Below are positions 8,206 through 33,665 of a DNA stretch of 64,000 nt, piece by piece. The position numbers and the translations under genes were made by a program. The stretch's first letter is position 1. The number at the start of each line of letters is the position of its first letter. Below the pieces are notes generated by a model. That model searched no databases and was not told the DNA's origin. It saw only the letters and a list, made by a program, of their open reading frames with translations. Origin of the DNA: Amyloporia xantha (taxonomy: Eukaryota > Basidiomycota > Agaricomycetes > Polyporales > Adustoporiaceae); NCBI GenBank assembly GCA_036971615.1, contig JAYKKR010000013.1, positions 1-64,000 of the forward strand, given 5' to 3'.

Positions 8206-8225
8206 GTCACTTACAGCAAAGGGGC

Positions 8226-10083: not shown

Positions 10084-10265
10084 CAACAGTGTAGCGCTTT
10101 CTCGCACGTGCCCTCATGCATGTCGACTCATTTCCTGCATATAAAGCGTACACCCAAAAACTGTGCATCTCACATCTAGACACGATCTACGCGCACACTG
10201 AATCCATCCATTATTGTCTATCAGTATAGTTCGGTTCCACTATTCTCTTTGCTACTCACCGGGTA

Positions 10266-11689: not shown

Positions 11690-11936
11690 GCAGGCCTAGG
11701 GACGTGCTATGCGCCAGCCTATGCACTGGCCACACCAGGCGAGCCCACTAGGCGCTCACCTAGGAGCGCACCAGGTGCCGACCTAGGCAATAAGCACCTC
11801 TCTAGGTGCGCGCTAGGCGCCGACCTAGGCATTAAGCGCCTCTCTAGGTGCGCGCTAGGCGCCGACCTAGGCATTAAGCGCCTGCCTAGGATTCCGGTCC
11901 TAGCTCAGCCTAGGAGGTCTCATAACCTAACACTTT
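11690..11936. repeat. CCTAGG-rich tandem repeat ending in a telomere-like motif
   Basis: Imperfect units, best seen as a 42-bp period, with CGCTAGGCGCCGACCTAGG as the core. The six-base palindrome CCTAGG recurs through it. The run ends in TCATAACCTAAC, the junction that in block B opens into four CCTAA units. Confidence 0.75.
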
Positions 11937-12085
11937 GTCGCATACTAGCACATGAGGAGCTGCTTTTACTGCATCATGTCTCCTTTAAGGATCGTCCAGC
12001 AAGGCACCCAGTCGGTACAAATAGCCCTTGCACAATGCATGCTATGGTTGGTGTGACTACAGCCGGGTTCCAATGTAATCCTTTT

Positions 12086-14414
12086 CAATATCCTTCAGCC
12101 TCATTCCAAATTCTGTCCTGTGTCTCTCCCGCTTCAGGCCCCACACCAGTGAATGAAAGTGTTGGCACCATGTAAGAATTGAACAAGAGGAACACATGCA
12201 AGAGCATGATGGAGGTGAGCATTGTCAGCACGTAGATCCTCCAGCATGGCGCAGACATATTCTCACTACGAAAAGGTTAGACACTACTCTCAACATGGTG
12301 GGCATCACATACCACACCATCGGCCAATAGATCGTTTTCTGTCAGCTCTCGACTGATAAACTTGAGAGCAGCAGCCACAGCGTCGGAAGAATCAACGAAC
12401 GCACAAAAAGATCACGGTCAATAGTGTGATCGTTGACGCTGGTGACAACAACGAGATGTAGAACCCGATGTTTTATCCAGAATTCTACAAAAAGGAAAGT
12501 ACGCTTTGGCGGGCACATTCAGAATGTACCACGCAAACTGTGTGCTAACATAGATGTTGCTTTACCGACAGTTTTCAGTTGTCCTTGCAGAGAGTTGACA
12601 AGCAACTTACGGGACGATTTCAAGAGCACCCGAATCTGGATTAGTGGAGATGTGGTGGACATTGAACTCGAGTATCACATGCATTGTCGGCATTCAGTTT
12701 CATGTGCTCGCGAAAGCGACTGTTGCGCGAATGTCATGGTGTGGCGAAGGCGACCATCGCGCGAAGGCGATCGTTGCGCGAAGACGATCGTTGCGCGAAG
12801 ACGATCGTTGCGCGAAGACGATCGTTGCGCGAAGGCGATGGTGTGGCGAAGGCGGTCATTGCGCGAAGGCGATCATCGTGCGAAGGCGATGGTGTGGCGA
12901 AGGCGATGGTGTGGCGAAGGCGATGGTGTGGCGAAGGCGATCGTTGCGCGAAGGCGGTCATTGCGCGAAGGCGGTCATTGCGCGAAGACGATTGTTGCGC
13001 GAAGACGATTGTTGCGCGAAGACGATCGTTGCGCGAAGGTGGTCATTGCGCGAAGACGATCGTTGCGCGAAGGTGGTCATTGCGCGAAGGCGATCGTTGC
13101 GTGAAGGCGGTCATTGCGCGAATGTCATAGTATTGCGAAGGCGACCATCGCGCGAAGGCGATCGTTGCGCGAAGACGATGGCGTGGCGAAGGTGGTCATT
13201 GCGCGAAGGCGATCGTTGCGCGAAGGCGGTCATTGCGCGAATGTCATAGTATTGCGAAGGCGACCATCGCGCGAAGGCGACCGTTGCGCGAAGGCGGTCA
13301 TTGCGCGAAGGCGATGGTGTGGCGAAGGCGATCATTGCGCGAAGGCGATGGTGTGGCGAAGGCGGTGGTGTGGCGAAGGCGGTCATTGCACGAAGGCGGT
13401 CATTGCGCGTAGGCGATGGTGTGGCGAAGGCGATCCTTGCGCGAAGGCGATGATGTGGCGGAGGTGATGGTGTGGCGAATGCGACCATCGTGTGAATGTC
13501 ATGGTGTGGCGAAGGTGACTCTCCTAATCTGGATTAGTGGAGATGTAGTGGACATTGAACTCAAGTATTTCCGAGAGCTTCACCCTTGGTGGATCTGTGT
13601 ACAAATGAATGAGGGAATACGTGCGCGAGCACCACAGAGCTTGGCATTGTCGGCATTTAGTTTCATATGCTCGCGAAAGCGACCGTTGCACAAATGGTGT
13701 GGCGAATGCGACCGTTGCGCGAAGGCGACTGTTGCGCGAATGTCATGGTGTGGTGAAGGCGACCATCACCCGAATGTCATAGTATCACGAATGCGACCAT
13801 TGCGCGAAGGCGATCGTTGCGCGAATGTCATAGTATCGCGAATGCCACTGTGCCACCATTGCGCGAATGTCACGGTGGGGCGAATGCAACCATTGCGCGA
13901 ATGTCATAGTATTGCGAATGCGACTCTCCTAATCTGGATTAGTGGAGATGTAGTGGACATTGAACTCGAGTATCACATGCATTGTCGGCATTCAGTTTCA
14001 TGTGCTCATGGCGACCGTTGTGCGAATGTCATCGTGTCGTGAATTGTGTGAATGTCATAGTATCGCGAATGCGACCATTGCTTGCGCGAATGCGACCGTT
14101 GCGCGAATGTCATGGTGTGGTGAAGGTGACTGTTGCGCGAGTTGCATAGTATTGCCAACGCAACCGTTGCGCAAATGTCATGGTGTGGTGAAGGCGACTG
14201 TTGCGCGAAAGTGACCATTGCGCGACTTCCATAGCATCGCGAATGCGACTGTTGCGCGAGTTGCATAGCATCGTGAAAGCGAAGTGGTTTCATGGGGTCG
14301 CAAAAGCATCGGGTTCCGATGTAATCCTTTTCAATATTCTTCTGCCTCTTTCGGAATTCTGTCTTGTGGTTCTCCCGCTTCAGGCCCCACACGAATGAAT
14401 GTGTTGGTACCATG
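12086..14414. repeat. Minisatellite region with matching flanks
   Basis: About 85 bp at 12086-12177 (TTCTGTCCTGTGTCTCTCCC ... ACCATGTAAG) is repeated at 14341-14414, and the 30 bp before each also match, so the minisatellite sits between direct repeats. A second segment (GGATTAGTGGAGATGT ... GAACTCGAGTAT) occurs three times, at about 12636, 13531 and 13931. No gene is supported despite long open frames, which result from the repeat itself. Confidence 0.7.
12705..13520. repeat. 17-bp minisatellite, about 48 units
   Basis: Continuous 17-bp units such as GAAGACGATCGTTGCGC, with variants GAAGGCGATGGTGTGGC and GAAGGCGGTCATTGCGC. Because 17 is not a multiple of 3 and no frame has a stop, all three plus frames appear as Arg/Ala-rich proteins with a 17-residue period; these are artefacts. 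Neighbouring units can pair (CGATCGT ... ACGATCG around TGCGCGAAG). A decayed version continues from 13690 to about 14290. Confidence 0.9.
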
Positions 14415-14544
14415 TAAGAAAGTCGGCATTCAGATCTTTCAGCATGGCACAGATATATGCTCGCTACCAAAGAGTTAGAGACTACCCTTCAATCACATAC
14501 TACACTATCGGCCAATGAGTTGTTTTCTGTTCACAATGGCTGTG

Positions 14545-14770
14545 GTTTCAAGCAGGTGTGATTGCACAAACAATGCGGAATCGGGATCGGTGGCAGTTTA
14601 ATATAAGTGCAATTGCAAGCACGAGGCGGAAGCGATAGCCAAAACGATGCGGAATACAGGTGTGATTGCAAGAATGATGCGGCAGCGATTTCAAAAACGA
14701 TGTGGTTAGGTTGTGGTGTAATACAGGTGTGATTGCCAGAACGTTGCAGAGGTTATTGCATGCACGATTG
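14545..14770. repeat. Degenerate GTGTGATTGC repeat
   Basis: Imperfect units contain GGTGTGATTGCAAGAA and GATGCGGNA, spaced 60-70 bp apart. There is no coding signal. It lies just downstream of the gene Y stop codon. Confidence 0.45.
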
Positions 14771-14905
14771 CCCTTCTGCAGGAATACATGAAAACACCCT
14801 GGCGCTTGTGACGCAGCCAACATGATGTCTTATTCTCTTTAAAATCTCTGTTCGTGCTAAACTACTTGACTTAAATTGATATCAAAAATAAACTAAACCT
14901 GTAAA

Positions 14906-17900
14906 CTACATAGCATCTGCAATAGGCCTGGTGTAAGCCACCGTGGGACGCATCCGTTTCTTGGGCTGTGACAAAGGAATATCAAAAGGATCTACATCTG
15001 CATCATCTTCATCATCACTGGGGACCATTGCACGCCTCTTGCCTCGTGCGGTGGCACTGAGACCTGTCCTGGACCTTGGGTTTGATGAAGATGGCCTAGC
15101 ATCGTCAAGGAGGATGATGGGCTGAGAAATGGAACCCCCTGTGATGTTACTTGGCCTTCTGATGAGCTGCCCATCCTCCACCAACCTGTCTGCCATCCAC
15201 TGCCCTCCGATGGCTTTGACCGCATCATAAGGACCGTATGGAGCAGAGTTGAAGAGGGTGAGCAGCCTTTGGTAGTACCTGATGAGCTCCTCGTCCTTGT
15301 GGAATTTCCAGTCCTGGCCGAAGATGGGCTTGATGATTTTTGTCGAGGTGGCACAGGCGATACCCATGCGAACGAGATTGAATGCGGTCAAACCTTTGGC
15401 GTTGTGCTTGGCAGTCCATTGGGGACCAAGTGCGTTTGATTTGCTCTTGGCGACTGATTTGCGAAGGGGTGACTGTGGGTCCCACAAAGCGAGGATGAAG
15501 ACTGTCATCATAGGGATGAAGGGATCTTGACGTGTGTTGCCCTTGCGACCCATGTTTGACAACCAGGGAGCGTGTCTGACGGCCTCTGTGAGGGCATTTG
15601 CCGAATGGGTGTTGGGTAGGACACACTTGGAGTCCTTGGTCTCGAAGAAAACGTTGGGGATGAAATGGGAAAAGACGATGGCGAGGATGAGAGCGAGATG
15701 GTGGATTTGGTTTCCAAAGTCGAAGCGGTCGAAGACGTAGTGATAAGTCTTGGTGACGATATGCTCGCGGTCGCTGTCCAAGGTACAATTGTCGATGGTG
15801 AACTCGGAGGGGGGGACTTGGCGAGTCAAGACGGAGGAGAGTTGAGAGAGGGGGATGGCAGATGCGGACCAGTCGGCACGGGTGCTGAGCTGAAGGGCAC
15901 GAGAGGTGATGGCTGCTGCGAGTTGTTCCTGGTTCTCCTCATGGTTCTGTACGGCAGGGCGGATGAGTCTTGGAATGGTGTGTGCGTCTGGAGCGTCGAC
16001 CATGATCCAAGAATCGAACTGGGGTTTCCTGGATGTTCTTCCGCCTTTCTTCTTGCCCTTGGGTGACTCATAGTGCCAAGGTACGAAGGTGATGTCGTGG
16101 GCTTGGATGACGAGAAGGAAGAAGTCGACCATCCAGATGTGAAGGTGCTTGTCGGACATGTTAGGCGGGGCCAAGTTGAGCATACCGGTGATGGCGAAGC
16201 GGAGGACGGCGGGAGCTGTGCCCTTGGAAATGAGGGTGCGGCGATGGTGTGTGAACTGCCTGGTTTGCCCATCTCGAAGAGGAGGCGTGCGAGAGCCCTG
16301 TGAGGCATGCAACCGTCTGTGGGATTCGGGAGGCCTCGAGCCATGGAGGTGATGTCTGCATTGACCGCTCTGATCAAGGCGGCGTAAGCGATACCTTTGT
16401 TAGACATGCTGAGGGGGTTCTTCATCTTGAGCCACGCTGCGAGCTGCTTGAGCCTGTTGTTGTGGAAGTGGCGTGCCTCTGGCGACATGTTCTCTATGTC
16501 GATGGAGGAGACCTTCTTGACGTCGAGGCGAACGGCGTGGGCGACGTACTGCTTAATGTCCTCTATGATGACGGTTAGCGATGTCGGCCATCATGATGGC
16601 CTGACGATGTGCTGAGTTGCCCTCGTACTTGATGTACTTGATGGGGATGGGCTTGTCCTTCATGAGGGAGAAGCGAAAGTTGGCCATGTACGCCTGTGGA
16701 GAGCAAAGAGAAATATATGTCAGTGTGTGTGTGTGTGGGATAAAGCATGTATAGAGAGGGACCGTGGACGCGCATCGGCCCGAGCAAACGGAAGCGCGAA
16801 ACGGACGCCAGGAGCGACTGTGATGGACGTCCATGCACGATAGGGGCCGTTTGCGCGCATCGGCCCGAGCGAACGGAGCGCGAAAACACGCCATAATTGT
16901 ACGGCGTGCGAGGCAGGGTCGGTGTCGCAGTGTGCAAAAACGCGCTTTTGCACGGTCGTGCAAAAGCGCCAACGGGACGCTATTGTGGTGATGGTTGACA
17001 ATAAGGAAAAAAACACTCACCGCTGCGACGGATGCTCCCCAGGTTAACATGATGGCACGTGTGGAAGCCGTGGCAGGCAGTCCATCAGGGCCGTATGTGG
17101 GCCACTTGGCGGGGCGATGCTGAGGGGTTTCTTCTGATTGAGATGGAAGCGGATGTCAGGGTGGAAACAGGGGAGACCGTGCTCGAGGATGCCGCGATCG
17201 ATGAAGAGAGGGCGCATCAACTTTGTGGCCAAGACCTGGGCGTTGCCGGTACATGCGAAGGCGACCAGGCGCTCAAAGATGGAAATCATCTCGACGTCCG
17301 TGGGGGAGATGGTGTTACCCTTTGCGATATCGGGAGCGAGGGCCAAGTACAAACGCTCCAACAGAACACATATGGCATATGTGGTCCATATGTAGAGGGC
17401 GGGAAGGACTGTTGTGGACCCAAAAAGGTTCATACATAAGTAATAATGCGAGATACCGCTGTGTGGACTCAGGACTGACCTCCGGTTTGAAGACGACGAG
17501 ATGGCTTCGGAGTCTTTGGAAAATGTTCTGAGAGATGGTGGCGTTCACCAGGCGCATGACGATGTCGCGATAGAACGTTCTACATAAAGGGAGGTCAGGT
17601 TGGGAACACGTTAATGTTAAAGGAAACCACGATAGTACTGACAATCCCGAGCGCTTGATGGGAGGAATGTTGTCCATGAGAATGGTGACGACGTTCTCGA
17701 TGCGCAGCGATCTGGGAACGGTGCCGGACTCGATCTTTTGACGGAATCGCTCGTGGGGGAGGCCGAGATCGTGTTGATGCAAGAGGCGAGTGTGAATAGA
17801 TTTGCTGCGAGTGTCGGAGGCCCATCCGCCTGTGCAGGCCTGAGTGAGACCACCTGTACAGACCTCCTGGAGACCTGCGGTGGGCCTGATGCGATGGGAG

Positions 17901-20690
17901 ACCTCGTTGTAGATCTGGCAGGCGATGGGGAGAACGATAGGGCCTTGTCCTCCGTTTTCTCGAACGTAGTCGTCCATCTGCTCGAGCAATTCGGCGTCTT
18001 GGAGCTCTTCGATGACTTCTTCCTCGTCACGACCGTCTTCGTCCATATAGTCCTCGTCATCGTCATCGTTGTCGTTGTTGAGGACCCCGGTGCGGGGCGG
18101 AGGAGGACGTCTGTGGCGGAAACCTGGAGGGGGAGGAGGGACATCCTTGCGAATTTCCTTCTCAAGGTCAATGATGAAGGGGATGTAGAGGGGAAAGAGG
18201 CGATTCGCCTGAACGTTCCCGTAGATCTTCAAGAGGGCTTGGGGGTAGCCATGTAGCTTCAAGCCCTTGTCTTCCGTTCCTCGGTTGCGGAAAAAGTCCT
18301 CTATCTCTTGACTCGCCTTCTTGAGTTCCTCGGCTTGGTCGTGGATATTGTCCGGGAAAGGGTTGTTGTCATCATCGTCGTCGTCGCCGCCGTCGTGTTG
18401 GTTGTCATAGTCTGGGGGGTCGCTGGAGCCAAAGTCGCTTTCCTCCATGAACCAGTTGGGATTGTCCTCTGATGGGTTGCCTTGGGGGTCGTGGTCCTCC
18501 TCTTGGTCCTCGTCGCCCTCGTCCACTGTGTTGCGTCGTGGAGGTCGCTGGTGATACTGACTTTGTTGGGACTGGGACTTGCGTGCGCGATCTGCCTGGC
18601 GGATGTATTGCAAGCCTTCGCCGTTGTCGTTGAGGTCGTTGAACATGTCGTGGATGTTGCGGAGGTCGAGGAGAGCGGCGCACTCTGGTTTTGTGAGGTC
18701 GACGGGTCTGTGGATGCGAGGGATGCGACGGCCATCTGGGGTATAGATGGGGATCTCGTTTCCTTTCTCGTCTTCGAGGGGATAGGAGTGGAGATCGAGA
18801 CCGTCTTCGTCGTCTTCGTGGGTGTAGCTCGGGAAGACTCGCGGGTATTGAGCGTAGATGTCCTCCACCGGGATGGGTTGGAAGGAGGTGACCTGTCTGA
18901 TCCTGTTATTGTGAAAGGGAGGGAAGGAGAGATGAGTTGGTGTGTACATTATTGTATATATTGAGAGCATCGAGGAATGTACATACTGAATGTGTGTGGC
19001 GATGGCGATGTCGACGGACTTGAGACCGAGCCAGTTGCGTTCTTCGTCCCACTGCTTCATCTCTTGGACTGCTGCGCCTTTTACGCCGACGGGTTGGTTC
19101 TGGCCGTACCTGCAGGTGATGAAGATGGGGGAGTGTTTCGTGATGAAACCGGCTTTGCGCCAGCGACCGGGGGTGTTCTGTACCCAAGGTTCCCAGGAGG
19201 AGCTGAGGAGGTCGTGAAGACGGCGTGCATGGGGAAGGGTGAGTCGAATGTTGCGATGCTCGCTGCGAAATGAATATCATGAGTGAGCGGATATAGAGAC
19301 GAGGATGGTGAGTGAAAGACGCAATAACGCGCATCGGCCCGAGCGAACGGAAGCGCGATATGAGCGTATATTTATATGCATGACGTGGACGACGACGGAC
19401 ACCAGTAACGCGCTTCCGCGGAAGCGAACGGAAGCGCGATCTGGGCACCTATGTGGTGTGTGCGCACGACGTGGATATGACCAACACGGGGCCGATAACG
19501 CACTTCCGCACGGCGATGCGGAAGCGCGATATATACGCTACATATATATATACACGCACGTGATCTATGTGACGCTAGAAGCGTGCGGAACGCGCTTCCG
19601 CACGGCCGTGCAGAAGTGGGAACGGGGCACAGTAACGTAAAGAAAAGAAAAGACTTACAAGACGTTGGTCACGTCCGAAAGGGACCACGCGTTGAGGTCC
19701 TTGTCCAGACCGTACCGATGCTGCGGATGGACAGTGATGCCTTGGAATCCCATCTCGGCCAGCTGCGTCGAAAACCAGAGGAGAAAGATCTTGACGTTGT
19801 GGGCGCTGAGGCGGGAGTCTTTGCGCGTCGGGGCGACAAAGGTGACGCTCTCCTTGGAGCTGTCCAAGAAGTCGTTCGGCGCAAAGGCGACCCATAGCTC
19901 CTCGTCTCGACAGCGGCCGACGTACATCATGCGCCCGTCAGGGTTGAAACCCATGTCCCCGTGCTTGGCGCGCCATTCGCGATAGGGCTGCTTGAGGTCC
20001 AACTCGAGAGTGAAATGACGATCGGAGAGTACGGTGGGGAGACAGGCGTCGAGACCCATACCGGAGGGAACGCACCGCATGTAGTCGATGAAGTGGTTGT
20101 CTGCGGTCCACTTGAGAGACTTGTCGAGGGTGGGGATGATGAATTCGTCGTCGACGATGATGGCGGTGCGTTTCTTGAGGACGTTGACGGCATGCTCTGT
20201 GCTGCTCGCGGTGCGGGAGAGGGCTGCGTTGCGCAAGACGGACAGGGAGAGCTTCTGCTGATAGGTGCGATTCCACAAGTTCTCGTTGTTGGCGTCGTGG
20301 TTGTCGTCGAGGACGTCCTCGCGCAAGACGTGCTCGAGGACCTCGCTCTGGTCTATGTGGGTGTCTGCGGTGAGGCCATCTGGGAGGTCGTCCAAAAGAA
20401 CGGCTGGCGGCGCGCGGAGAGCACGTCATCGAGACATGCAGAGCTGAAAGAAAACGAAGATATATTTAATAAGTTGATAGACGAGAGGATGAGGACGTAC
20501 TTTGCGTATTGCTGAAGGACTTGGTGGGGCAGGAGGTCCGGGGCTCTCGAGTCTTCGTCAACCTGTGCGCTGGAGGTTGAAAACGATAAGAATACGAAAG
20601 AAATGAGAGAAAAACGAGAACATACTGGGAACTGCGAGGAGGAGGAGGAGGAGGAGGCATGCGAGCTGAGGACGAGGTTGCGACGGACAT
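14906..20690 (-). CDS. Gene Y: large unknown multi-exon protein
   Basis: Eight exons with good GTRNGT/AG sites (about 20690-20627, 20569-20501, 20443-19659, 19262-18987, 18902-17643, 17579-17480, 17408-17021, 16693-14906) would give roughly 1,570 residues. The start MSVATSSSAR follows a clean CCAAC context. The protein has a Pro-rich amino end, a central Asp/Glu-rich region (about 18.05-18.45 kb) and a basic, Ser-rich C terminus with KKRMRP, suggesting a nuclear location. Aromatic-rich conserved-looking stretches include WEPWVQNTPGRWRKAGF and HLHIWMVDFFLLV. I recognise no domain. Two introns (19658-19263 and 17020-16694) are several-fold longer than the rest and hold P2 palindromes. Frame breaks near 20424, 17480, 17100, 16573 and 16265 mostly need one added base in a homopolymer, so the gene is either recently broken or carries sequencing errors. 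Confidence 0.6.
16769..16970. repeat. P2 palindrome array, three copies, in a gene Y intron
   Basis: Hairpins at 16769-16798, about 16854-16882 and 16937-16966 within the 327-nt intron. The first two carry CGCGCATCGG ... CGGA(A)GCGCG arms; the third is a variant with AAAACGCGCTTTTGCACG pairing to CGTGCAAAAGCGCC. They are spaced about 84 bp apart. Confidence 0.85.
19328..19620. repeat. P2 palindrome array, four copies, in a gene Y intron
   Basis: Copies at 19328-19357, 19409-19439, 19499-19528 and 19591-19620 in the 396-nt intron. Core arms CGCGCTTCCG and CGGAAGCGCG enclose a loop of about 10 nt. Spacing is 81-92 bp. The last copy has a decayed right arm. Confidence 0.85.
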
Positions 20691-21855
20691 GTTGGCTTAG
20701 AACAGAGTGGGAGCTGAGCTGACAGTACGAGACTCGAGAAGATGAGAGGAGGAGGAGGAGGAGGAGGAGGAGGGGGTCAGTGACACGTCTGAATGAACTG
20801 GTAGACGAACCGGTATGGATCGGTCCAGGCTGGGACATTAATTAGTGTGTGGCAACCAGGGTTGGATGGGAGGAGATCGGAGAAAATTAGTGTGGAGCGA
20901 TCGAGGTAGGATCGGCTATAGTGCTGAAACAGGGGAGAAATGTTAACCATTGAATTGATTGAACGGATAGTATGGGTACCTTGGGGATACTACATGATGA
21001 TGCGTGTACGCTGTGAGTACAGTGCAGCTATAGGACGAGTATGAAGAGCGTGAACGGAGAATGAGCGGGCGGAATCGAGGACTTACTACGAAGACGAAGA
21101 TGATGATGATGATTTGATCGAGTCGGACGAATCGGAAGCGAGAAGCGGAAGCCGGAGCGGAAGACGCGCAGGAATCTTGAGATAAAGTAATAAGCGAAAA
21201 GATGGAGAGTATATTGAGAAGATGATGGGGATGAAACAGGGGCGTACGCAGGTCGGGCGCAGTATGGGATCGAACGGTATCGCTCGCGATGACATAAACA
21301 TGAATGCATTGCGCGTAGATAGCGACGGTAATACATGAGTACGATTATACGTCCGAGTGCGATATATCGACGGGGCGTAGCGAAGACGTACATGACGAGA
21401 GAGGAGAGAACGACGATACAATTACATGAGTATGATGGGTTGAACCATCTGCGAGGGAACATAGTTGTACAGGAAGAATCATGCATCATATGGGTTGAAC
21501 CATATGATGATGCGATAAAGACGAGAAATGTACGCAGCGTGGAGACACTCAGAGCTCATTGATCGTGTCGTCGTTCTCTTCGTGAGCAGGCAGAGAGGCT
21601 ATGGTGAAGGATAAGGGGAGTCAGATCGCGCGTGCTGGAGGGTTCGGTTAGGTCTGAAGGAAGCGCTGCTCACCGAGGAAACTTCCGGACGGGCGAGCGG
21701 AGGTGTTGCCTCCACCGCGAACGCCACTGCCACTGCCACTGCCACCGCGAACACCACCGCGAACACCAATGGCAAGTCCACCGCGACGAGGACGAGGACG
21801 AGGAGGGCCCGAGGGTTCCATGGGGCGAAGAGAGGCTGCACGGCGGGGCTGCTCT
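20691..21855. other. Inter-gene region between X and Y
   Basis: About 1.1 kb. Immediately upstream of the gene Y start is a run of GAG triplets (20743-20772), CTC on the coding strand, possibly a CT-rich promoter or leader. At 21640-21800 a minus-strand frame encodes an Arg/Gly-rich stretch (RGGVRGGSGSGSG) that may be the true 3' part of gene X if the frame is broken upstream. No other feature is clear. Confidence 0.4.
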
Positions 21856-24800
21856 CTACGTGGAAGAGGGGAGGCGGGGGAGGCGTGGGGGACGACCTCT
21901 GGGAGAGGGTAGGGGGGTCAAGGGGCGGGAGGGATCCTGAGTGAAAGGATGGTGGAAGAGGTTGGTGCGGCGGGGTGGAGGAAGAGGGTTGGCGGAGGAG
22001 GGGGTGAACATGTCAGGGAGCTGGCTGCCTTGCTCAGCGATGACCGAGGCCTGCGTGTTGTCTAAGGAGCGAAGGCAACAACATATTTGTCAGAAATATA
22101 TAGGTATATATACGAGACGGAGAAGGTGCCGATAACGCGCATCCGCCAGAGCGAACGGAAGCGCGTCAAACGGTTTAGTATGCACGAATAATATTCGATA
22201 TGACGCGCTTCGGCCCGAGCGTACGGAAGCGCGTCACGCGGGGGTACATGAAAATACTACCCCGTATGACGCGCTTCCGTTCGGTCGTGCGGATGCGCGT
22301 CGGACGAATATGTGTGTGCACACCACGCGTATATCGCGCTTCCGTTCGCTCGTGCGGATGCGCGTCGTACGGGTAGTATTTTCATGTACCCCGTGTGACG
22401 CGCTTCCGTTCGCTCGTGCGGATGCGCGTTCGATGGAGTGTCCCGAGCACTCTCGAGGTGCGTGGATCGCGCTTCCGTTCGTCCGTGCGGATGCGCGTTC
22501 GACGCACCAATACGATACATATGTGTGTCTCGTTCGCGCTTCCGTTCGCCTTGGCCGAAGCGCGAAACGAGACACACAGAGGCGAACATGTTTACTCACC
22601 GATGAAGTTGTCGTCCATCTCTTGGTCGTCGTCATCAGGCTGACCGGGTGCGAAGAGCACGTCACCCTGGATGTCCTGCTGCTCCTGGTGCGCAGACACG
22701 CCGGGCTCAGAGGTCGTCTTGCCCTTCCCCGTGTCGTCCCCCATCTCCGCATCCTCCTCATCCTCCTCCTCCTCCTCCTCGTTGCGCTCAGGGGTCTCTC
22801 CACGGCGCGGACGCTTCTTATCCGGAGAGGGTGTCGTCGCCTTTTCGAATTCTTGGAGACGTTCGAGTTGCTGCGCTTCTTGCCCGCAGGCCCACTCTCC
22901 CCCTGCCCATCTCCGCCTCCTTCGCCTTGCTCACCCGGGGCCTCCGGTTCATCATCCCCACCCTCCTCTGGCTCTGGCTCTTGCTCTTCCTCCTCATCGT
23001 CGTTCTGCTCCTGCGTCAGCTCCGGCTCACCAGCACCTTCAGGTGCAGCAGCGATCTCTGCCATGGCCTTCTTCTTGGCAGCCCGCCTCGCCCGTTTCTT
23101 CTCCTCCTCCTCCTGTTGCAGCGCCTGGATGTGGGACTCCTCGAGGTCCATCAGCTCCTTCAGGTCGGTCTCAGTAGGTACGTCCTGTGAACACATATAA
23201 AAATAATAGGTCAGATGTCGGTATCCGTCTCTCTCGCACGCTCAAACGCACCCAAGGATATTCAAAGCGATCCGAGTATTGCGCATTGGGCAGCTGCAGC
23301 GAATTCGCGTCATACGACTTGAGCAGAACGGAGGCATCGAGCCGCTCCGTCCAGTTCTCGGTAACTTGACGCTCGCGATTGTGCGCCACGGTACTGACGA
23401 TCGCCTGCGAACACATTATAATGAGGAGTACGTCAAAGTACGCGCGCGCGAGAGAGAGACACGATCGCTCACCTTGTGCATCTGGCGCATCGTGAACGCG
23501 ACCAGTCCGTCCAGTGGACGCGTCGTTGGATCCTCGTCCACGTTATCCTGCGTGACCAGCCGAACCGACGGGAGGTTCGCGATCAGCGTGATGAGACGCT
23601 TCGCCTCCTCCAAGTCGTGGTCCGCCTGATCCGAGATCTCCAACGCCGAAAGGTCCTTGACGGTCTCAGCGGCCTTGCCCTTGCCCCGGCTCTTCCTGAC
23701 TGGCTTCGCTGCTTTCGACGCCGACCCAGAAGCCTCCGCCTTCCGCTCATCTTTCGCTTTGGCCCCGGCCTTCGCCTGAGTCGTTCCACCGGACGCACGA
23801 CTCGTGCTCTCCGCCGTCGCCGTCCCTGCCGCCTTCTCCAACCTCTTCTTCTTCTCCTGATCCACCACGTCCATCTGTTTCTTGCGCTGCGGGTTGGCCT
23901 CCCGCGTTTCGGACTCGACCCACGTCGGATTCGACACCTCCTTCGTCTGCTTCGTGAGATCGCACTCATCCCACCACTCGAACTTGACCTCCGCAGACGA
24001 GTCCATACCCTCCGACATGATCTTGGCGATGTCATCCCGCAGATCCAGGACGACCGGAGGCGTCGAGTCGAACATGAACGCACGGAAGTGGCTCATCTCC
24101 AGAGCCGTCACCACCGCCATCGACGAGATGTCCCGCCGGAGGTTCTTGAGGCACGTCCAGCCCTTCCTGCCCGTCTTCGGGTCCTCCGCCAGCTCGCCCC
24201 TCCACGGCATGCCCGAGAACCACAACGCTCGCCACCCGAACAGACGCTCGACCTTCTTGTGGTCCTCCCGAGCGACGAACTCGTTCCGCGCATCTATCAA
24301 CGCCGACACGGTCTGCACGAGCGACCTCGGCGCCATCACCTTGTCGAAGTCGATGTACTTGAGGTACTCCTTCGCACTCTCCACTTCTTCCGCCGACGGC
24401 TCCCTGACGCGCGTCTTCTTCCACCCACTCGACCAGAACATCGCGAACATGCCGGTCCCGAGCTCTTTCTTCGTGTTCAAACGGCTCCAGTCGCCGACTC
24501 CGGCATCAGTCTCCAGTGCACGTCCAGGAACGACGCCGCTTCGTCTCGCGTGCTCCACACCAGCCTGGCCAGCCTGGCGCACGTCTTCTCCACCTGCCCC
24601 GGCATGATCCCCGGCCATTGCTCGATCGTGTTGAACACCGTCAGCCAGTGGTCGGCGATGAACTCGGTCGAGTTTGTCATCGACGTGCACAGTGCGAACG
24701 GTTCGATGAACCACGCGATCTGTAAAAAAGAACATCCGTCAGCATACTCATAGCGTCGTCAGATCGCGCTTCCGTTCGCGCTGGCCGATGCGCGAAAACG

Positions 24801-27438
24801 GAGGCCCCCAGGGACGTCGTCCGATAGACGTCGATATCGCGCATCCGCTCACGCGGGCGGATGCGCGTCATTCGACGTTCATGCACACGCACGTGTGTCG
24901 TCACACACTCGTATGACGCGCATCCGCCCGAGCGAGCGGATGCGCGATATACGCACCTTGTGCGCATTCAATCGAGGTGCGTTTGACGCGCTTCCGTTCG
25001 ACCGTGCTGAAGCGCGTCAGACGCACCTCTCGTCACGCATATACAAAAATATGTCCCGATATCGCGCATCCGTTCGCTCGGGCGGATGCGCGTTATCGGA
25101 CATATTGGAACAGAGTATAGAAAAATGTTCACTCACCACAGACCATCCCGACGAGTACAGCTGCAGCTCGCTATCCAGCGACGCAAGATACGCACGGGAC
25201 AGGGGCGGAGGAGGTATGAACAGGTCGTATGCGTACATCTCCGCAGGCAGCGGCGTGTACAGCATCTTGATCCGCGCTAGCACCACCTGCCGGAACGCCT
25301 TCTCCTCCTCGTTCGCCGCCGGGTTCCGCTGCCAATGCCCCTCCAGACTGTCCATCAGCTGCACGCTGATGTCCTCCAGCTGCTTCCGCGACGCCTCCGT
25401 CGTCTTCCCCAGCTTCCAGTCCTCCGTCCGCACAGCAGCACGGAACGCACCGTCAGCAAGAACCATCACCGCGTCGTCCTGCCAAACCTCCCAATCAGGC
25501 GTACCACGCATCATCAGCATACGCTCCTCGTGGTACCCTATCCACGACAGTCGCTTGCTCAGTCGCGTCATCCTCGCATGCAGGTCCTCGTCCCGGTACT
25601 GCTTCTCCAGGTCCTCGAAGTCCTCCATCAACTTCCGCTGGAGCTTCGAGACATCCGCCACAGTCTTCATCTCAGAGTGCACCTCCTTCGACCCCAGCAA
25701 GCCCATGATGTCCGACGACTGCTGCCCCAGGAACATGAACAGCTGCAATATATATATATATTTCAGCATATGTCTCTCCATCGTAAGCACACATACTCAC
25801 CCCGAAGTGCGTCTTGAACATCGTCGTCACCTTCTCGATCCGCAGGTACGGCGATTGCAGGAAATCCCGCCCGTATCTCGTAAGAGACATCAGGAACTTC
25901 ACCGCCCGCGGGTGCGCCCACAGCTTCGCGAAGTGATTCGCGTGCTTCCGACGCGATTCCCCCGTGCGCGACCGCACATCGTTCAGCTCCTTCGCGAGCC
26001 TCGCATCGAACTTCCCCGGGACGCGGTCCAGCTCCCGCAACGCACGCAGCGTCATCAGGAAATACTCGTCCTCCGTCTCGTAGAACCGATGCATCTCTCG
26101 GTTCCGAGACAGATGCAACCCCATCTCCGTACTCAACTTCTCTGTAATGCGTATTAATAAAAACGTCCAATAATAATAGTTCAATCGCACTCACCGTAGA
26201 CGTACACCTCCGCCGACCACATCGCCTTCTCCTCGAGACGTGCCCGAGCCTTCTCGTACATCTCCACCAACTTCGTCAGCATATCGTTCTCCACCTCCGT
26301 CCGCGCCGTCTTCGCTCTCAGCAACTCCATCTCCGCCTCCGCCTTCACGTACGAGTCCAGCAACCGCTTGCAGTACATCGCGTTCGCCTCCCTCCGGTGG
26401 TGCCCACCGATGATGTACACCTCCGCCGGCGCCAACGTACCGTCCTCCAGCTCCGCCCGCGCACTGGGATCGATCTTCAGCTCCGGTAGAAGGTGTCCGG
26501 CCCGGCGCTGCAGCTCCCGAGGCGTCAGCGTATCGTCCAGGAACTTCTCCGAGATCGCAATCTGGATCATGTTCCCCGCTAGCAGCCCACCGTGCTCGAC
26601 GTTCAACTCCGCCAGCAGCCGAGTCGCCTCCATCTTGTTGATCGGCCGATCGTTCCACTGGTGCGGAACGAACACCATCCCCAACTCCTTCGCGAGGAAG
26701 TCCAGCAACGGCACCCGCACATGCCCGTACAGCGCCTCCGAAATCTTCGCCTCCAGCTTCGCCACCTCCTCCCCGCGTTCCTTCGAGTCGTCCGTCAGCC
26801 CGATCGCAGTCGTCATCTTCCGCAACGCATTCTAGATCCCCGTACGATCGAACGTCAATATCACATCCATCCCGATCATGTTAATCTTACGTACCTCCGA
26901 TCGCTCTGCTTCCCTCTCCGCCTTCGTCTGCTCGTCTTCCTCCTCCGCGGCCTCCTCCCCGTCCTCCTCCTCACTCTCCCCGTCCCCGTCGCTCACCTCC
27001 TGCGCCTTCTCCTTCCCCTTCCCCTTCCCCTTCGCCTTACCTTTCGCCTTCGCCTTACCTTTCTTCTTCCCCTTCGCCACAGGAACAACCTCCTCCACCT
27101 CCACCACATCGTCCTCGTCCTCGTCGATGACTGCGCCGACTTTCGACGGCCCAGCGATCGTTGCCTGCTTCACCGGCGGCGCAGCAGGCTTCGACTGCCG
27201 ACGTGGCGGCGCATACCCCTGCGGCACCCCAGCACGCTGACCGCGCAGCGTGATCGGCCGACTCAGCTGTGTCACAGCTGGCACTGTCCACAGCGTTATC
27301 CATGCACACTCTCATAGGTATATGCTACTCACCTTCTCCTTCTCCTTCTCCTTCTCCAGAGCTGCTATCGATCTCAGGAGGATCCGGTTGCTTGCGGCGG
27401 CGGCCTCCTCCGGTTGTCGTTGCTTTCTTTGGAGGCAT
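21856..27438 (-). CDS. Gene X: unknown protein with ParB/sulfiredoxin-like motif
   Basis: Nine exons (about 27438-27333, 27283-26895, 26831-26195, 26141-25801, 25742-25137, 24719-23473, 23404-23252, 23184-22600, 22061-21856), roughly 1,420 residues. The amino end is basic/acidic low complexity (MPPKKATTT, then KGKKKGKAKAKGKAKGKGKG), resembling a chromatin protein. Near residue 305 lies EVYIIGGHHRREANA, which resembles the GxHR box of ParB/sulfiredoxin-fold domains; the match is by eye. The rest is charged and helical, with a coiled-coil-like region around residues 320-370. Two introns (25136-24720 and 22599-22062) hold P2 palindromes, while the other six are 50-70 nt. Frame breaks near 24500 and 22900 are each mended by one added base. 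A 5' copy lies at 31641-32174. The 3' end is uncertain. Confidence 0.6.
22136..22564. repeat. P2 palindrome array, seven copies, in a gene X intron
   Basis: Copies begin at 22136, 22204, 22270, 22335, 22399, 22468 and 22535, spaced 64-69 bp, and fill most of the 538-nt intron. Typical arms are CGCGCTTCCG and CGGATGCGCG around a loop TTCGCTCGTG. Flanks also pair for some copies, for example GGTGCGTGGAT with the complement of GTTCGACGCACC around 22468, and TGTGTGTCTCGTT around 22535. The spacers at 22234-22269 and 22365-22398 are near reverse complements of each other. Confidence 0.9.
24765..25092. repeat. P2 palindrome array, five copies, in a gene X intron
   Basis: Copies begin at 24765, 24838, 24917, 24987 and 25063 in the 417-nt intron, spaced 70-79 bp. 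Outer arms pair around the last two: GAGGTGCGT and ACGCACCTC around 24987, and ATATGTCC and GGACATAT around 25063. Copies 24838, 24917 and 25063 have CGCGCATCCG as the left arm and CGGATGCGCG as the right arm, a perfect pair. Confidence 0.9.
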
Positions 27439-27568
27439 GGTACAGGTACGTCTCAGTCTCAGTGTGGAAGTCGAGGCGTATCGAACGACCAACGCATCCC
27501 AGCGCCCAGTCGATCGATACGATCACTCGACTCTCACAGTCACATGCATCGCCCGCACGTGCCTTCTT

Positions 27569-27959
27569 CGCGCATCCGCATGACCGAACGGATGCGCGAT
27601 ATCGAGGGTATTTTCGTGGTCTACACAAGTGCGCAGATCGCGCTTCCGTTCGCTCGTGCGGATGCGCGTTCGACGCGGTAAATATATCCCCAAATGTATA
27701 GCCCCAAAGGGCAAAAAACGCGCTTCCGTTCAATCGTGCCGATGCGCGTTTTTTGCACTTTGACACTACACATATTTACCCCATCGATCGCGCTTCCGTT
27801 CGATCGTGCGGATGCGCGTTCGACGAGGTATATGCGTATAGTACCCGAGTGCGTCGAACGCGCATCCGCACGAGCAAACGGAAGCGCGTTCGTGCATATA
27901 TTTCACTTCTGTACATTCAGTACTCCGTTCGCGCTTCAGCACGCTCTATCCGAAGCGCG
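27569..27959. repeat. P2 palindrome array, six copies, upstream of gene X
   Basis: Copies begin at 27569, 27639, 27719, 27789, 27859 and 27930, spaced 70-80 bp, between the gene X start and the LTR-like segment at 28037. Around 27719 the pairing extends to GCAAAAAACGCGC with GCGCGTTTTTTGC. This is the only P2 array outside an intron apart from its own duplicate, and it could lie in a 5' untranslated intron. Confidence 0.9.
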
Positions 27960-28036
27960 CTATTTTCTCTCAACTCATGTATTTATGGTATATTACCCTA
28001 CTGTACAGGGTTTCGCTACATAAATGTACCTCCCCG

Positions 28037-28106
28037 CTCCTAATCGGACCTACCCAAACCCAGAAGGGAGGTAAGTGTACCCCAACCCAGTTACGAAAAC
28101 CCTATA
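28037..28106 (+). repeat. LTR-like promoter segment, copy 1
   Basis: About 70 bp from CCTAATCGGACCTACCC to CCCTATATAAT, repeated at 32776-32848 and 33457-33527. It ends at a TATA box exactly where block B begins, so the block B left border is inside or next to a mobile-element remnant. Confidence 0.6.
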
Positions 28107-28134
28107 TAATAGTCATCACTTACAGCAAGGTGGC

Positions 28135-28501
28135 TCAGAGATGAACCATCGACCCCACCTCTTGTCCTGATCTGATGAGCGCCGCAGCAAATTCAATCAT
28201 TGCTTTGAATTCCCTGAGGACGCAATGCATCACAACGCCCGGGCGATGCGGCCGTACGGTGCTGATGAGTAACCTGGCCTGTGGAACTAAGATCAGAAAA
28301 CTTGCATGTGTTGTATGTCTAGATTTCATCACTTACTGCGTGCCACAGCACTCTCGTGGCCCACTGATGCCAATAATTTGGAGAATATACTTGTGGACTC
28401 AGCGCTGGGCCCCGCTCACGTTCCTCCCGCAATCCTGCGTATGCTTCGCGCGCAATCTCGAACATTCGCGCGATATACTGATCGTTGGCGTTGGCGGTCA
28501 T
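28135..28501 (-). CDS. Small two-exon protein B1, copy of A1
   Basis: Exon 1 (28501 to about 28337) and exon 2 (28278-28135) match A1 with a few substitutions (PQVYSPNYWHQWATRV here). Both exons remain open and the splice sites are kept, giving about 103 residues. Conservation of the frame through divergence supports a real protein. Function unknown. Confidence 0.58.
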
Positions 28502-29089
28502 GGGGGTTGGAGGGGATTTTCTATCTCTCCTATGGACGGTCCTGGCACTCTTATGAATATTTTGCGCTCTCTCTTACGTTTGCAGAAGCATTCGCGTAGC
28601 AGACTCAATACCCTGAGATCTTCTCCAATGGACTACCCGATGACAGGACGTGCGAATAGAACACGCATTCAGCACCTCAAATCTTCTAGTCTGTTCTAGT
28701 CTGTTAGTCTGTTACTAACCGAGTCACCTGCTTGATGCGCCCTGTTTTAGGTTCATACTCAAGCGCATCAGCATCTCCCACACAGGGTTAGGGTTGGAAA
28801 TATATCTAATCAAGGCATTCATTGATGTGAATGTTTGGCTAGAATCACAGTGATCGAGAGAACTCATATGCACGTGACTCCATCATCCCGCGCAGAGGGC
28901 GCCGTCCAGGACGGCCACCCGCTCCGCACCTCAGGCTCAAATGTACACACAAGGGAGCGGCCGTCCAGGACTGCCACTCCGCACACATCTCGCCACCTCC
29001 ACTTACGATTTGACGAGACCCATGTGTACGGATTGATATGTAAATATATTCAGGGTGTAGGGCCGAAGCAATGCAGAAGATAAGGGACA

Positions 29090-29222
29090 TGCAGCATGGA
29101 TACACTACCATGTTGCCAACAGACGAAGTAAGTAATGCAATGGGATAGAGGGTATATAAATGGTCCTGAGTAGGCCGGGTTTAGAGACATGTGTGTATTA
29201 TTATACAACATGCACGAGGACG
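29090..29222 (+). repeat. Partial 127-bp TG...CA element inserted in block B
   Basis: Contains GACGAAGTAAGTAATGCA, GGGTATATAAATGG and TTATACAACATGCACGAGG, as in the units at 1010-1258. Block A lacks it at the same position, so it arrived (or was lost) after the blocks duplicated. Confidence 0.65.
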
Positions 29223-29299
29223 GGACTGTTCACAGTATTTCTGAAGGAACAACCCATGCATAATAAGACATCAATTGATTGTCGTTCATTTATTTTCTA

Positions 29300-29812
29300 C
29301 TACTCACCGGACACTAGGGTCATCCCTTCCTCCTCGGCGGCCTCGCACTCAAACAAGAGTATGTCTACTGCATCTTGGAGCACGATATCCTGGTACCCGC
29401 CTGCAGCCCACTTTAAGTCGCCATATCCACTCCGACGTATTTGTCTTTTCAGCTCGTGCAATGTAACCTATTCGTACTGTTAGCGTCGTTTCAAACCCTT
29501 GCATATGTTTCCGTACTTACTTTGTAATACACAACTCGAAGTGCCCAGTGCACCCAGTATTTCCGAGAGTACACTTTGGGTGCCTCCGCCGGCCTCTCCG
29601 TATATGCATGTTCCTAGAGCATGGGCATACATGAGCACTTTATGAAGTAACCGCACTGTCGCCCACGACGTTTGCCCGTACCATGACATCCTGAACAACA
29701 GGGCAAGGGAGTTTGCATTCCGCCCACGTATAGCACTGTCTTTTAAGCACAATTGTTGTCTTCCTACTGACGTCCAAGCTCTACCCGCTGACGCGCCTCG
29801 TGTGATGCGCAA
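29300..29812 (-). pseudogene. Copy of A2 with a one-base frameshift
   Basis: Nearly identical to A2 but carries one extra base at about 29612 (TTCCTAGAGC against TTCCAGAGC), which shifts exon 1 before the VYSRKHW motif. Splice sites and exon 2 are preserved. It is either an inactive copy or a base error. Confidence 0.6.
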
Positions 29813-30356
29813 TACCTAATCGATAACACAAGCGATCCTACTTCTCACCGCTTAGCCATGTTCCGTCCACTCCGTCAAATGACAATCTCCTAGTGAGCGC
29901 ATTACGTTGTGATTACATAGTTAAATATTAATACAACATATATGATCATCTCGTTTATTTGTGATCTAGTCATCGCATCAAGCGCATCAATGTTCCTATA
30001 CACGTTTACATTTCAAATAATCATAAGTATGTCATGATCTACAACTTGTGCCATCCCACGCGGGACTCAGTCAATGCTCACAGGGCACTCACGGCACTGG
30101 CCGTCCAGGACTGCCATGCCTGCCACGGGACTCTTGTACTCCGCCCCATTCACACTGGCCGTCCAGGACGGCCACAACAGTGTAGCGCTTTCTCGCACGT
30201 GCCCTCATGCATGTCGACTCATTTCCTGCATATAAAGCGTACACCCAAAAACTGTGCATCTCACATCTAGACACGATCTACGCGCACACTGAATCCATCC
30301 ATTATTGTCTATCAGTATAGTTCGGTTCCACTATTCTCTTTGCTACTCACCGGGTA

Positions 30357-30731
30357 CTACGGTGTCCACAGTATTAGCCCTCTCGCCTCTTCAAACATGT
30401 CATGAAAAACCTCCAGCCCAGCCCCCACGCGAAGCTCTCGCGCATACACCTCACTCATCAACCCTCCGACCGTGAGCTGTTCAAGTCATCAATATATTTA
30501 TCCCCCATGTAGTAACCCAACTTCTCTACTCACCTCGGTTTCTAATACCTGCAACGCCCAGTGTGTCCACACTGCCCGAGACAATACCCGCGGCATTACC
30601 GCTGGCCTACGCATGAACAATAGCCCCAATTGGTAACATTGACCACGTAGGTCCAAGATCAGCAACCTCGAAACTGCGTCGAGATGGTCAGGCATATCAA
30701 TCACGAATGGCGGAACAGTGTTTTCGGCCAT
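30357..30731 (-). CDS. Small two-exon protein B3, copy of A3
   Basis: Exon 1 ends at about 30534; exon 2 ends at 30357. The sequence is almost identical to A3 and both exons are open. The ATG at 30731 (MAENTVPPF) is used; the DNA diverges from block A just upstream of about 30,800, which fits a coding region starting nearby. Confidence 0.58.
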
Positions 30732-31229
30732 TCTGACTGGGATGGGTGGTTTCCGAATCCCAATGACATTGCCCACTCTTATATGTATCTCGTCTCTCCT
30801 CTTACGTTACAGCTCTATCCGCACACACAAAATCAATTCAATTCATGAGCTTTAACACCGCATGTGAATCTTGAACTCAGTACCTACACGAGGTCGAAAC
30901 ACCGCGTAGAAGATCCATCTGCGATCAAAGAATCTGTCAACAATCTCATTGCTATCCACCCGATCTTTTGCTCCTCGCTTAAATTTCATATCTAAGGTTA
31001 GGGTTTAATATTATTCTCTTTATAGGAAACCACTGTGTGCAGCACATACCCCATATTTCACGGACGGTGGGTGCGGAGCTCTCCGCCTCTCATGGCTGTC
31101 CTGGAAGGCCATATCTCTCTCTACAGTAATATAGACACTTTTACCGGAGATTTCTCTTACTGCAGATAGATATCCACATAGGGAAGGTCTGTTCCTAATA
31201 AGGTGTGCACATAACCTATATGCTGTGTT

Positions 31230-31620
31230 GCAGCGAGGGACATCCAGGACGTCCGCCTCCGGTGCTATATATCAAGTCTGCCAAATCTAACATGCGCACT
31301 ACGTGTATGTGTTCCAGAAAATATGGACGTCCTGGACTGCCATCTGCACCGCTGCGCCATTATGCTCTGTAGCGCGGATGGACGTCCAGGACGGCTGCCC
31401 CCGTGTCTGCCCCCCTCTGCTCGCCTAGGCACGTGCTAGGCGCCAACCTAGGCACTGGGTGCTGACCTAGGAGCACGCCTGGGCATTGTGCGCCAGCCTA
31501 GGAACACGCTAAGCGCTGAAACCTAGGCATTGTGCGCCAGCCTAGGTGCACGCTAGGCGCCGACCTAGGCATTAAGCGCCAGCCTAGGATTTCGATCCTA
31601 GCTCAGCCTAGGAGGCCTCA
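31230..31620. repeat. P1 units and CCTAGG repeat of block B
   Basis: P1-type inverted repeats at about 31238, 31325 and 31380 are followed by CCTAGG-rich units (about 31425-31615) with CGCTAGGCGCCGACCTAGG as in block A. Confidence 0.7.
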
Positions 31621-31640
31621 TAACCTAACCTAACCTAACC
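31621..31640. repeat. Interstitial telomere repeat, four CCTAA units
   Basis: TAACCTAACCTAACCTAACC sits between the CCTAGG repeat of block B and a gene X fragment that is cut in mid-exon. Orientation matches the left telomere, so the sequence to its right behaves like an old, healed chromosome end. Confidence 0.85.
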
Positions 31641-32174
31641 GCCTTCGTCTGCTCGTCTTCCTCCTCCGCGGCCTCCTCCTCCCCGTCCCCCTCCCCACTC
31701 TCCCCGTCCCCGTCGCTCACCTCCTGCGCCTTCTCCTTCCCCTTCCCCTTCCCCTTCGCCTTACCTTTCGCCTTCGCCTTACCTTTCTTCTTCCCCTTCG
31801 CCACAGGAACAACCTCCTCCTCCTCCACCACATCATCCTCGTCCTCGTCCTCGTCGATGACTGCACCGACTTTCGACGGCCCAGCGATCGTCGCCTGCTT
31901 CACAGGCGGCGCAGCAGGCTTCGACTGCCGACGTGGCGGCGCATACCCCTGCGGCACCCCAGCACGCTGACCGCGCAGCGTGATCGGCCGACTCAGCTGT
32001 GTTACAGCCGGCACTGTCCACAGTGTTATCCATGCACACTCTCATAGGTATATGCTACTCACCTTCTCCTCCTCCTCCTCCTTCTCCAGAGCTGCTATCG
32101 AGCTCCTCCACCTCAGGAGGATCTGGTTGCTTTCGGCGGCGGCCTCCAGTTGTTGTCGCTTTCTTCGGAGGCAT
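31641..32174 (-). pseudogene. 5' fragment of gene X, truncated at the telomere tract
   Basis: Starts at ATG 32174 (MPPKKATTT) and matches gene X exon 1, intron 1 and most of exon 2, then stops at the interstitial telomere repeat. The breakpoint corresponds to about 26925 in gene X. Identity is high, with small in-frame differences in the Gly/Glu and acidic runs. Its upstream region, including six P2 palindromes, is duplicated too. Confidence 0.8.
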
Positions 32175-32302
32175 GTTAAAGGTACGTCTCAGTTACAAGT
32201 GAAGTCGAGGCGTATCGAACGACCAACGCATCCCAGCGCCCAGTCGATCGATACGATCACTTGACTCTCACAGTCACATGCATCGCCCGCACGTGCCTTC
32301 TT

Positions 32303-32697
32303 CGCGCATCCGCATGTCCGAACGGATGCGCGATATCGAGGGTATATTTGTGGTCTACACAAGTGCGCAGATCGCGCTTCCGTTCGCTCGAACGGAAGCG
32401 CGATCGACGGGGTAAATATATCCCCAAATGTATAGCCCCAAAGGGCAAAAAACGCGCTTCCGCCCACTCGTGCGGATGCGCGTTGTTTGCACTTTGACAC
32501 TACACACATTTACCCCGTCGATCGCGCTTCCGTTCAATCGTGCGGATGCGCGTTTGACGGGGTATATGTGTATAGTACTCGAGTGCCTCGAACGCGCATC
32601 CGCACAAGCAAACGGATGTGCGTTCGTACATACATATACTTCACGTGTGTACATTCAGTACTACATTCGCGCTTCAGCACACTCTATCCGAAGCGCG
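32303..32697. repeat. P2 palindrome array, six copies, upstream of the gene X fragment
   Basis: Copies begin at 32303, 32373, 32453, 32523, 32592 and 32668, with the same spacing as 27569-27959. The second copy has become a perfect hairpin (CGCGCTTCCGTTCG with CGAACGGAAGCGCG) where the original has CGGATGCGCG as its right arm. Confidence 0.9.
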
Positions 32698-32775
32698 TTC
32701 TTGTCTCTCAACTCATATATTTACGGTATAGTACCCTACTGTACAGGGTTTCGCTACGTAAATGTACCTCCCCCA

Positions 32776-32848
32776 TCCTAATCGGACCTACCCAAACCCA
32801 GAAGGGAGGTAAGTGTACCCCAACCCAGTTACGAAAACCCTATATAAT
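32776..32848 (+). repeat. LTR-like promoter segment, copy 2
   Basis: Matches 28037-28106 and ends in CCCTATATAAT, after which the sequence differs. It marks the right end of the duplicated gene X upstream region. Confidence 0.6.
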
Positions 32849-33456: not shown

Positions 33457-33665
33457 TCCTAATCGGACCTACCCAAACCTAGAAGGGAGGTAAGTGTACC
33501 CCAACCCAGTTACGAAAACCCTATATAATTCTACGCGAGCATCAACGGCGCGCAGGAGTACGACTCGCAGAACGGTTACGAAAAACCTATATAATGTCTC
33601 TGGTATCTTGTGCATCATCAGTACTATAACGAATTATTGCCGTTGCGTAGAGTTATACAACATGG
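33457..33665 (+). mobile_element. Probable Copia-type LTR remnant
   Basis: Begins with the shared promoter segment (CCTAATCGGACC ... CCCTATATAAT), has a second CCTATATAATG at about 33587, and ends GAGTTATACAACA. The next bases are TGGTATCA, the start of the usual Copia primer-binding site complementary to initiator tRNA-Met. No internal coding region follows; the Slm1-type gene ends 100 bp further on. It is a solo or truncated LTR. Confidence 0.5.

Follow-up and report, generated by a model that had tools for sequence, protein, structure and literature searches.

The hairpin arrays in the window, the whole 64-kb stretch of DNA analysed here, belong to a multi-copy mobile element of about 16.3 kb. 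Divergent relatives of this element carry dyads of another sequence at matching places, and each element carries solely its own motif; the arms of the dyads are conserved in sequence, and in one lineage the spacing is near constant. We propose that the arrays act in cis as DNA sites of this fungal element and would be read by its own protein, most likely for anti-silencing or activation, a proposal that leans on analogy with a plant system and to which we give about even weight.

The window holds 31 dyads of 30 bp with the half-site CGCGCWTCCG, grouped from left to right in six arrays of 3, 4, 7, 5, 6 and 6. The strict dyad pattern matches 17 times in the window and not once in 100 shuffles, and the half-site with at most one mismatch occurs 68 times against an expectation of 12.1. 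Looser scoring gave 35 segments at 15 or more of 20, four of which (at 1852, 19411, 23280 and 25941) were discarded as stray or overlapping. The estimate of about 31 hairpin copies in six arrays, made in a preliminary description from the letters of the sequence, is thus borne out by scoring and shuffling. Four arrays lie in long introns of two genes, ORF1 and ORF2 (genes X and Y of that description), one is upstream of ORF1, and one is within a truncated duplicate. The features are as follows:

11931-28110, minus strand: mobile element copy, delimited by blastn against other copies; right end fixed, left end truncated against telomere-associated sequence
14906-20690, minus strand: ORF2, ~1550 aa as modelled (gene model)
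16694-17020, minus strand: ORF2 intron at codon ~963, 327 nt, GT-AG, 3 dyads (16769-16970)
19263-19658, minus strand: ORF2 intron at codon ~292, 396 nt, GT-AG, 4 dyads (19328-19620)
21600-27438, minus strand: ORF1, ~1300 aa, start at 27438, 3' end uncertain (gene model)
22062-22599, minus strand: last long ORF1 intron, 538 nt, GT-AG, 7 dyads (22136-22564)
24720-25136, minus strand: ORF1 intron, 417 nt, GT-AG, 5 dyads (24765-25092)
27569-27959, no strand: upstream array of ORF1, 6 dyads (dyad scoring)
28066-28110, plus strand: fixed end of the element (...GTTACGAAAACCCTATATAAT), 38 genome copies with at most 3 mismatches
31639-32848, minus strand: truncated element copy with the 5' part of ORF1, 6 dyads at 32303-32697 and the fixed end

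The hairpin motif described earlier is present, but its arms are often mismatched (stem pair 6 is unpaired in 14 of 30 copies and pair 9 in 11 of 31), and two of the three dyads in the ORF2 array at 16769-16970, those at 16854 and 16941, are degenerate. The length of the array introns does rise with copy number, as had been noticed, with 3, 4, 5 and 7 copies in 327, 396, 417 and 538 nt. These introns are based on splice signals, the reading frame and Suillus proteins that cross the first ORF2 junction; since the latter continue uninterrupted over this junction in protein comparison, a real intron is supported there. The short introns measure 49-97 nt in the gene models, in which the 3' end of ORF1 and some exon edges are uncertain, and some longer introns of the automatic models span several exons. 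Helical phasing of the dyads was considered for the window lineage and rejected (R 0.27).

The 45-base end sequence that closes in CCCTATATAAT at 28110 occurs 38 times over 20 contigs (at most 3 mismatches). Contig C34 has two complete units, of 16,275 and 16,268 bp, arranged head to tail ~0.41 Mb from its end. In many copies the other end is cut, and on C11, C12, C17 and C23 the fixed end abuts the cut end of another copy. Truncated copies retain the fixed end, mostly together with its array, the exceptions being an end at 33505-33529 with no dyad and an end on C23 with one. On C42, the fixed end, with one base missing, adjoins a frame matching the copia-type reverse transcriptase RVT_2 (E 3.6e-23). 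The contig of the window opens with a (CCTAA)n telomere repeat 174 bases long, the cut end of the copy at 31639-32848 adjoins three telomere repeats at 31624-31638, and several copies lie near contig ends with telomere repeats; internal insertions are also present (C42, C34). A 213-residue piece of ORF1 has 25 genome matches at ~18 places, 14 of which cover at least 193 residues, and a 248-residue piece of ORF2 has 19 matches, at 10 near-identical and 8 divergent places. The two genes with arrays in their long introns, as the preliminary description had correctly placed them, are therefore genes of a repeated mobile element and not of the host.

The distribution of the dyads in the genome agrees with this assignment. 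Counting all forms, the strict dyad has 198 sites, 107 of them of the A form, and the 100 A-form sites listed all fall in element copies: 53 are at most 700 bp from a fixed end, 43 are at most 6 kb from an ORF match, and the remaining four are on C42 in a copy terminating at the fixed end. Random scatter of copies over the genome, which the preliminary description had named as a contrary result, was not seen among these 100 classified sites. As a separate observation, the 3' noncoding part of the element contains 17-bp tandem repeats (consensus CGCGAAGGCGATCGTTG) at 12709-14282, with 43.7 copies in the block 12709-13451.

One fixed end with the other truncated, copies that abut cut ends, and the nearness of telomere repeats are features shared with HeT-A/TART and the endonuclease-lacking Penelope elements, which are telomere-attaching retroelements. 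Unlike these, the fungal ORF1 and ORF2 have no reverse transcriptase match in Pfam, the window copy has its genes oriented towards the telomere, and internal insertions occur. Classification as a telomeric retrotransposon was rejected for want of a reverse transcriptase among the Pfam matches of ORF1 and ORF2.

Of the eight divergent ORF2 places, which are 32-37% identical over the piece searched, three were read in part, all in one genome: D1 (C10), D2 (C17) and D3 (C15). ORF2 is identical in 73% of aligned residues between D1 and D2 and in 30-37% for the other pairs. The gene order ORF1-ORF2 is common to all three, with ORF1 assigned by position and by one exon picked by eye that is 23-25% identical; tblastn of the window ORF1 against D1-D3 gave nothing below E 0.1. 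D1 and D2 share the dyad GGAATANCGTCC-N2-GGACGNTATTCC, which numbers 23 sites in D1 and 14 in D2 within the initial 14.5 kb read, against 0.1 in shuffles; 7 of the D1 sites belong to the terminal array of a neighbouring copy. D3 has the dyad GCGGCATTSG-N10-CSAATGCCGC, with 12 sites after removal of 2 low-scoring ones. Counting the three motifs in the four elements gave the following, with 0 for the reversed-motif controls:

Window motif: 23 in the window element, 0 in D1, 0 in D2, 0 in D3
GGAATANCGTCC motif: 0 in the window element, 22 in D1, 14 in D2, 0 in D3
GCGGCATTSG motif: 0 in the window element, 0 in D1, 0 in D2, 12 in D3

Genome-wide, the GGAATANCGTCC motif has 78 strict sites and the GCGGCATTSG motif 37, with 0 for both reversed controls. 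Among the 50 GGAATANCGTCC sites listed of the 78, 40 are on C10 and C17, which are contigs with a divergent ORF2; 34 of the 37 GCGGCATTSG sites are on C15, C36, C57 and C59, which carry divergent ORF2 copies as well. The remaining listed sites of the two motifs are on C6, C19, C22, C23 and C35. It should be noted that at C15, C57, C36 and C59 the D3-type dyads extend over ~18-35 kb per locus; this may reflect a D3 element longer than that of the window, or several neighbouring copies.

The places of the arrays are retained between the lineages. In the two array introns of ORF2, the numbers of dyads and the intron lengths are as follows, the splice sites of D1-D3 at codon ~292 having been chosen by hand:

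ORF2 intron at codon ~292: window 4 dyads, 396 nt; D1 3 dyads, 248 nt; D2 2 dyads, 195 nt; D3 2 dyads, 300 nt
ORF2 intron at codon ~963: window 3 dyads, 327 nt; D1 0 dyads, 91 nt; D2 0 dyads, 70 nt; D3 2 dyads, 189 nt

Intron length tracks the number of dyads, down to short introns where there are none. Further arrays of D1 and D2 are situated upstream of ORF1 and, in two stretches, between its exons. In D2, a terminal array of 11 dyads stands directly inside the fixed end, which resembles that of the window element, and 6 of its 10 gaps are 72-74 bp. Among the D1 and D2 gaps below 100 bp, 21 of 26 measure 51-53 bp, with spacers that are on average 35-36% alike; between D1 and D2, the arms are 93.5% identical (14 site pairs) and the spacers 36% (10 spacers). 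The 51-53 bp step itself is firm. Since 52.5 bp corresponds to five DNA turns, phasing is conceivable, but the phase statistic of D1/D2 is weak (R 0.39, 7 distinct step classes) and five-turn phasing is only suggestive.

Conservation was compared across the 4-11 element copies per array contained in the fetched stretches. The mean pairwise difference is 0.012 in the arms (450 positions) and 0.010 in exons (three stretches); it is 0.043 at the degenerate arm positions (50 positions), 0.046 in the loops and 0.035 in the spacers, and none of 5000 permutations reached the difference between arms and spacers. The degenerate ORF2 array at 16769-16970 departs from this: in four copies its arms (0.046) exceed the spacers (0.017). 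At the degenerate arm position, the two sides vary independently, being matched in 16 of 30 copies, with 14.7 expected. The percentage of paired positions was reached by 110 of 500 column shuffles and the covariation score by 118 of 500; in one of the five measures, stem pairs changed on both sides, the observed three were reached by 30 of 500 shuffles. Because the arms are conserved as exons are, the degenerate position, loops and spacers are not, and most covariation measures lie within the shuffles, the dyads look like DNA sites and not RNA hairpins. Selected stem pairing of the Dicer or miRNA type was rejected as a candidate, with most covariation measures within shuffles and no Rfam match for the dyads. 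The likeness to CRISPR was superficial, as first supposed: the repeats are not near-identical, conservation is limited to the arms, and no cas family is among the Pfam matches of ORF1 and ORF2, so a CRISPR array was rejected too.

Protein binding, intron folding and Dicer substrates had all been offered as roles, and only the first of them gained support, the different dyads of the relatives at the same places making the case for protein-binding sites. Pre-mRNA hairpins that compact long introns for splicing, or that feed Dicer, we now consider quite improbable, even though the four array introns are long, with a length that goes up with copy number, and pairing of the outer flanks at positions 3-5 exceeds that of swapped flanks (a value found in 15 of 2000 shuffles; for positions 1-10, the result is less clear, with 87 of 2000), to which the three double-changed pairs may be added. 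Overall pairing and covariation do not exceed the shuffles, mismatches are free at two stem positions, and one array lies outside the genes, ahead of the ORF1 start codon. Moreover, introns without dyads are simply short, which indicates that intron length is a consequence of the arrays and not a problem that they solve. Functionless tandem or palindromic repeats that arise neutrally through slippage and gene conversion would account for the likeness of some neighbouring spacers (identity up to 0.92), but not for arms that stay conserved around a degenerate position left free to vary, nor for matching introns that hold different dyad sequences; this is the least probable of the explanations that we weighed.

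ORF1 and ORF2 have no Pfam match and no DNA-binding domain in the Pfam copy scanned, which was without PF26608.1. No ORF1 homologue was found among 8000 candidates scored. ORF2 has at least three relatives in a search of the same size, which may miss others: proteins of Suillus clintonianus (950 aa), Suillus hirtellus (1338 aa) and Boletus edulis (1396 aa), the latter two species being of the order Boletales. All three bear a precomputed PF26608.1, and that of Boletus edulis is labelled DUF8190. In the open-licence literature, we found no paper on DUF8190 and no description that we recognised as these elements. The telomeres of Boletus edulis are (TTAGG)n, as in the contig of the window (PMC12134998). 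From these relatives and the shared telomere repeat, a host in the order Boletales seems probable. Neither the ORF1 and ORF2 exons nor the three ORF2 homologues match a Mutator-type transposase or VANC family in Pfam. For the ORF1 exon with the best conservation, the AlphaFold model has a pLDDT of 42.7, a confidence too low for use. Viral origin was rejected, no relative being present in viral contigs scanned with two short patterns.

Place and geometry of the arrays are kept between lineages while their sequence is replaced, so a reader protein that changes together with its sites is to be expected, and the simplest candidate for such a protein is one encoded by the element. We therefore consider it highly probable that the dyad binder is element-encoded, and we lean moderately towards ORF1 rather than ORF2 as this binder. 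In the mechanism that we propose, the protein would bind to the individual dyads in the form of a dimer or paired unit and would cover the noncoding parts of every copy, on the promoter side and in the introns. Acting as a sequence-specific anti-silencing or activating factor, it would most likely keep the element's own copies expressed, and the sites would change together with the protein between element lineages.

That the outcome would be anti-silencing or activation is suggested by analogy with VANDAL transposons. In the VANDAL/VANC system of Arabidopsis, too, short motifs recur in the introns of the element's own genes and in noncoding DNA upstream of them, the motif differs between related families, and the motif regions diverge fast (PMC5735166; PMC10398659). 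In VANDAL21, the tandem repeats that bear the motif are located within introns of VANC21 and VANB21 and ahead of VANA21, and VANC6 uses motifs that differ from those of VANDAL21; VANC motifs are short, stand in arrays of a single orientation and are not dyads (PMC5735166). The fungal motif, in contrast, is a dyad of 26-30 bp, and one fungal lineage has steps of 51-53 bp. Anti-silencing has been demonstrated in VANDAL, whereas for the fungal element it is our inference. VANDAL also encodes a Mutator-type transposase, whereas neither fungal gene product matches the Pfam copy scanned. In the open-licence literature, we found transposon self-recognition through arrays of noncoding motifs solely for Arabidopsis VANDAL.

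Anti-silencing or transcription control, as opposed to transposition, is a job that we assign to the dyads with evenly divided confidence. The main rival holds that the dyads are binding sites of a transposase or replication initiator that serve synapsis or mobilisation and not expression. It is rather unlikely in our view, although sites stand close to the fixed end in both lineages whose fixed end was read (6 in the window element, 11 in D2) and truncated copies retain the fixed end, usually with its array. In CACTA/En-Spm elements, subterminal repeats consisting of many short motif copies are bound by an element-encoded protein and are known only from the ends. Many sites of the fungal element, by contrast, are in internal introns: in the window element, introns of the two genes hold 19 of 25, at distances of as much as 11 kb from the fixed end, and in D2 they hold 11 of 25. 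The near-constant spacing of the dyad arrays raises another explanation, namely that they serve to tether or partition element copies or chromosome ends, or to gather them in clusters. Regularly spaced dyad arrays are known from bacterial ParB-parS and from sopC of the F plasmid, and the fungal element resembles these systems in having an array of palindromic sites. In addition, the ORF1 exon at 26196-26831 contains a G-x-x-R-x-x-A that is invariant in the four aligned ORF1 sequences (window, D1-D3) and that we take to be reminiscent of ParB box II. The ParB homology suspected from this motif was rejected, however, since it is absent in Pfam and PDB profile searches, a ParB_N search of the genome gave 0 matches at E 10 with a control positive in 11 of 14 genomes, and profile comparison with 80 bacterial ParB sequences gave 0.85% probability, with a score within 30 column shuffles. 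A partition role is accordingly improbable.

Returning to the anti-silencing or activating reading, we tentatively extend it, at somewhat less than even confidence, to an undescribed superfamily of large fungal elements with one fixed attaching end, often near chromosome ends, in which each lineage would possess a private dyad, present in tens of copies in promoter and introns, and its own sequence-specific binder. If this is true, the dyads would form an address-label system that permits self-only activation or anti-silencing and drives the splitting of lineages. An anatomy like that of VANDAL without detected kinship, and with the motif fully replaced between lineages of a single genome, would then mean that self-recognition systems arise repeatedly, and the evolution of DNA recognition could be studied on proteins and sites that nature has already paired. 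A reason for the long introns in these fungal genes is also suggested, namely that they house the sites.

Outside the element, a second type of dyad, approximately GGCCGTCCWGGACGGCC, occurs 28 times in the window against 0.35 in first-order shuffles. Within the window, these dyads are found only at 737-11668 and 28900-31396, flanking the element; in one run they are 93-94 bp apart, and pairs are spaced at 55-75 bp. A second element linked to telomeres may have this as its private dyad. A telomere-associated sequence ending in GGAGGYCTCAT (11890-11931, 31600-31640 and ~756 of L032) joins short telomere repeats or, directly, variously truncated element copies, resembling in this the fixed end of some other chromosome-end element. 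At 176-640, a 154-residue open frame starts almost directly at the telomere repeats and seems to be the truncated 3' portion of a larger gene.
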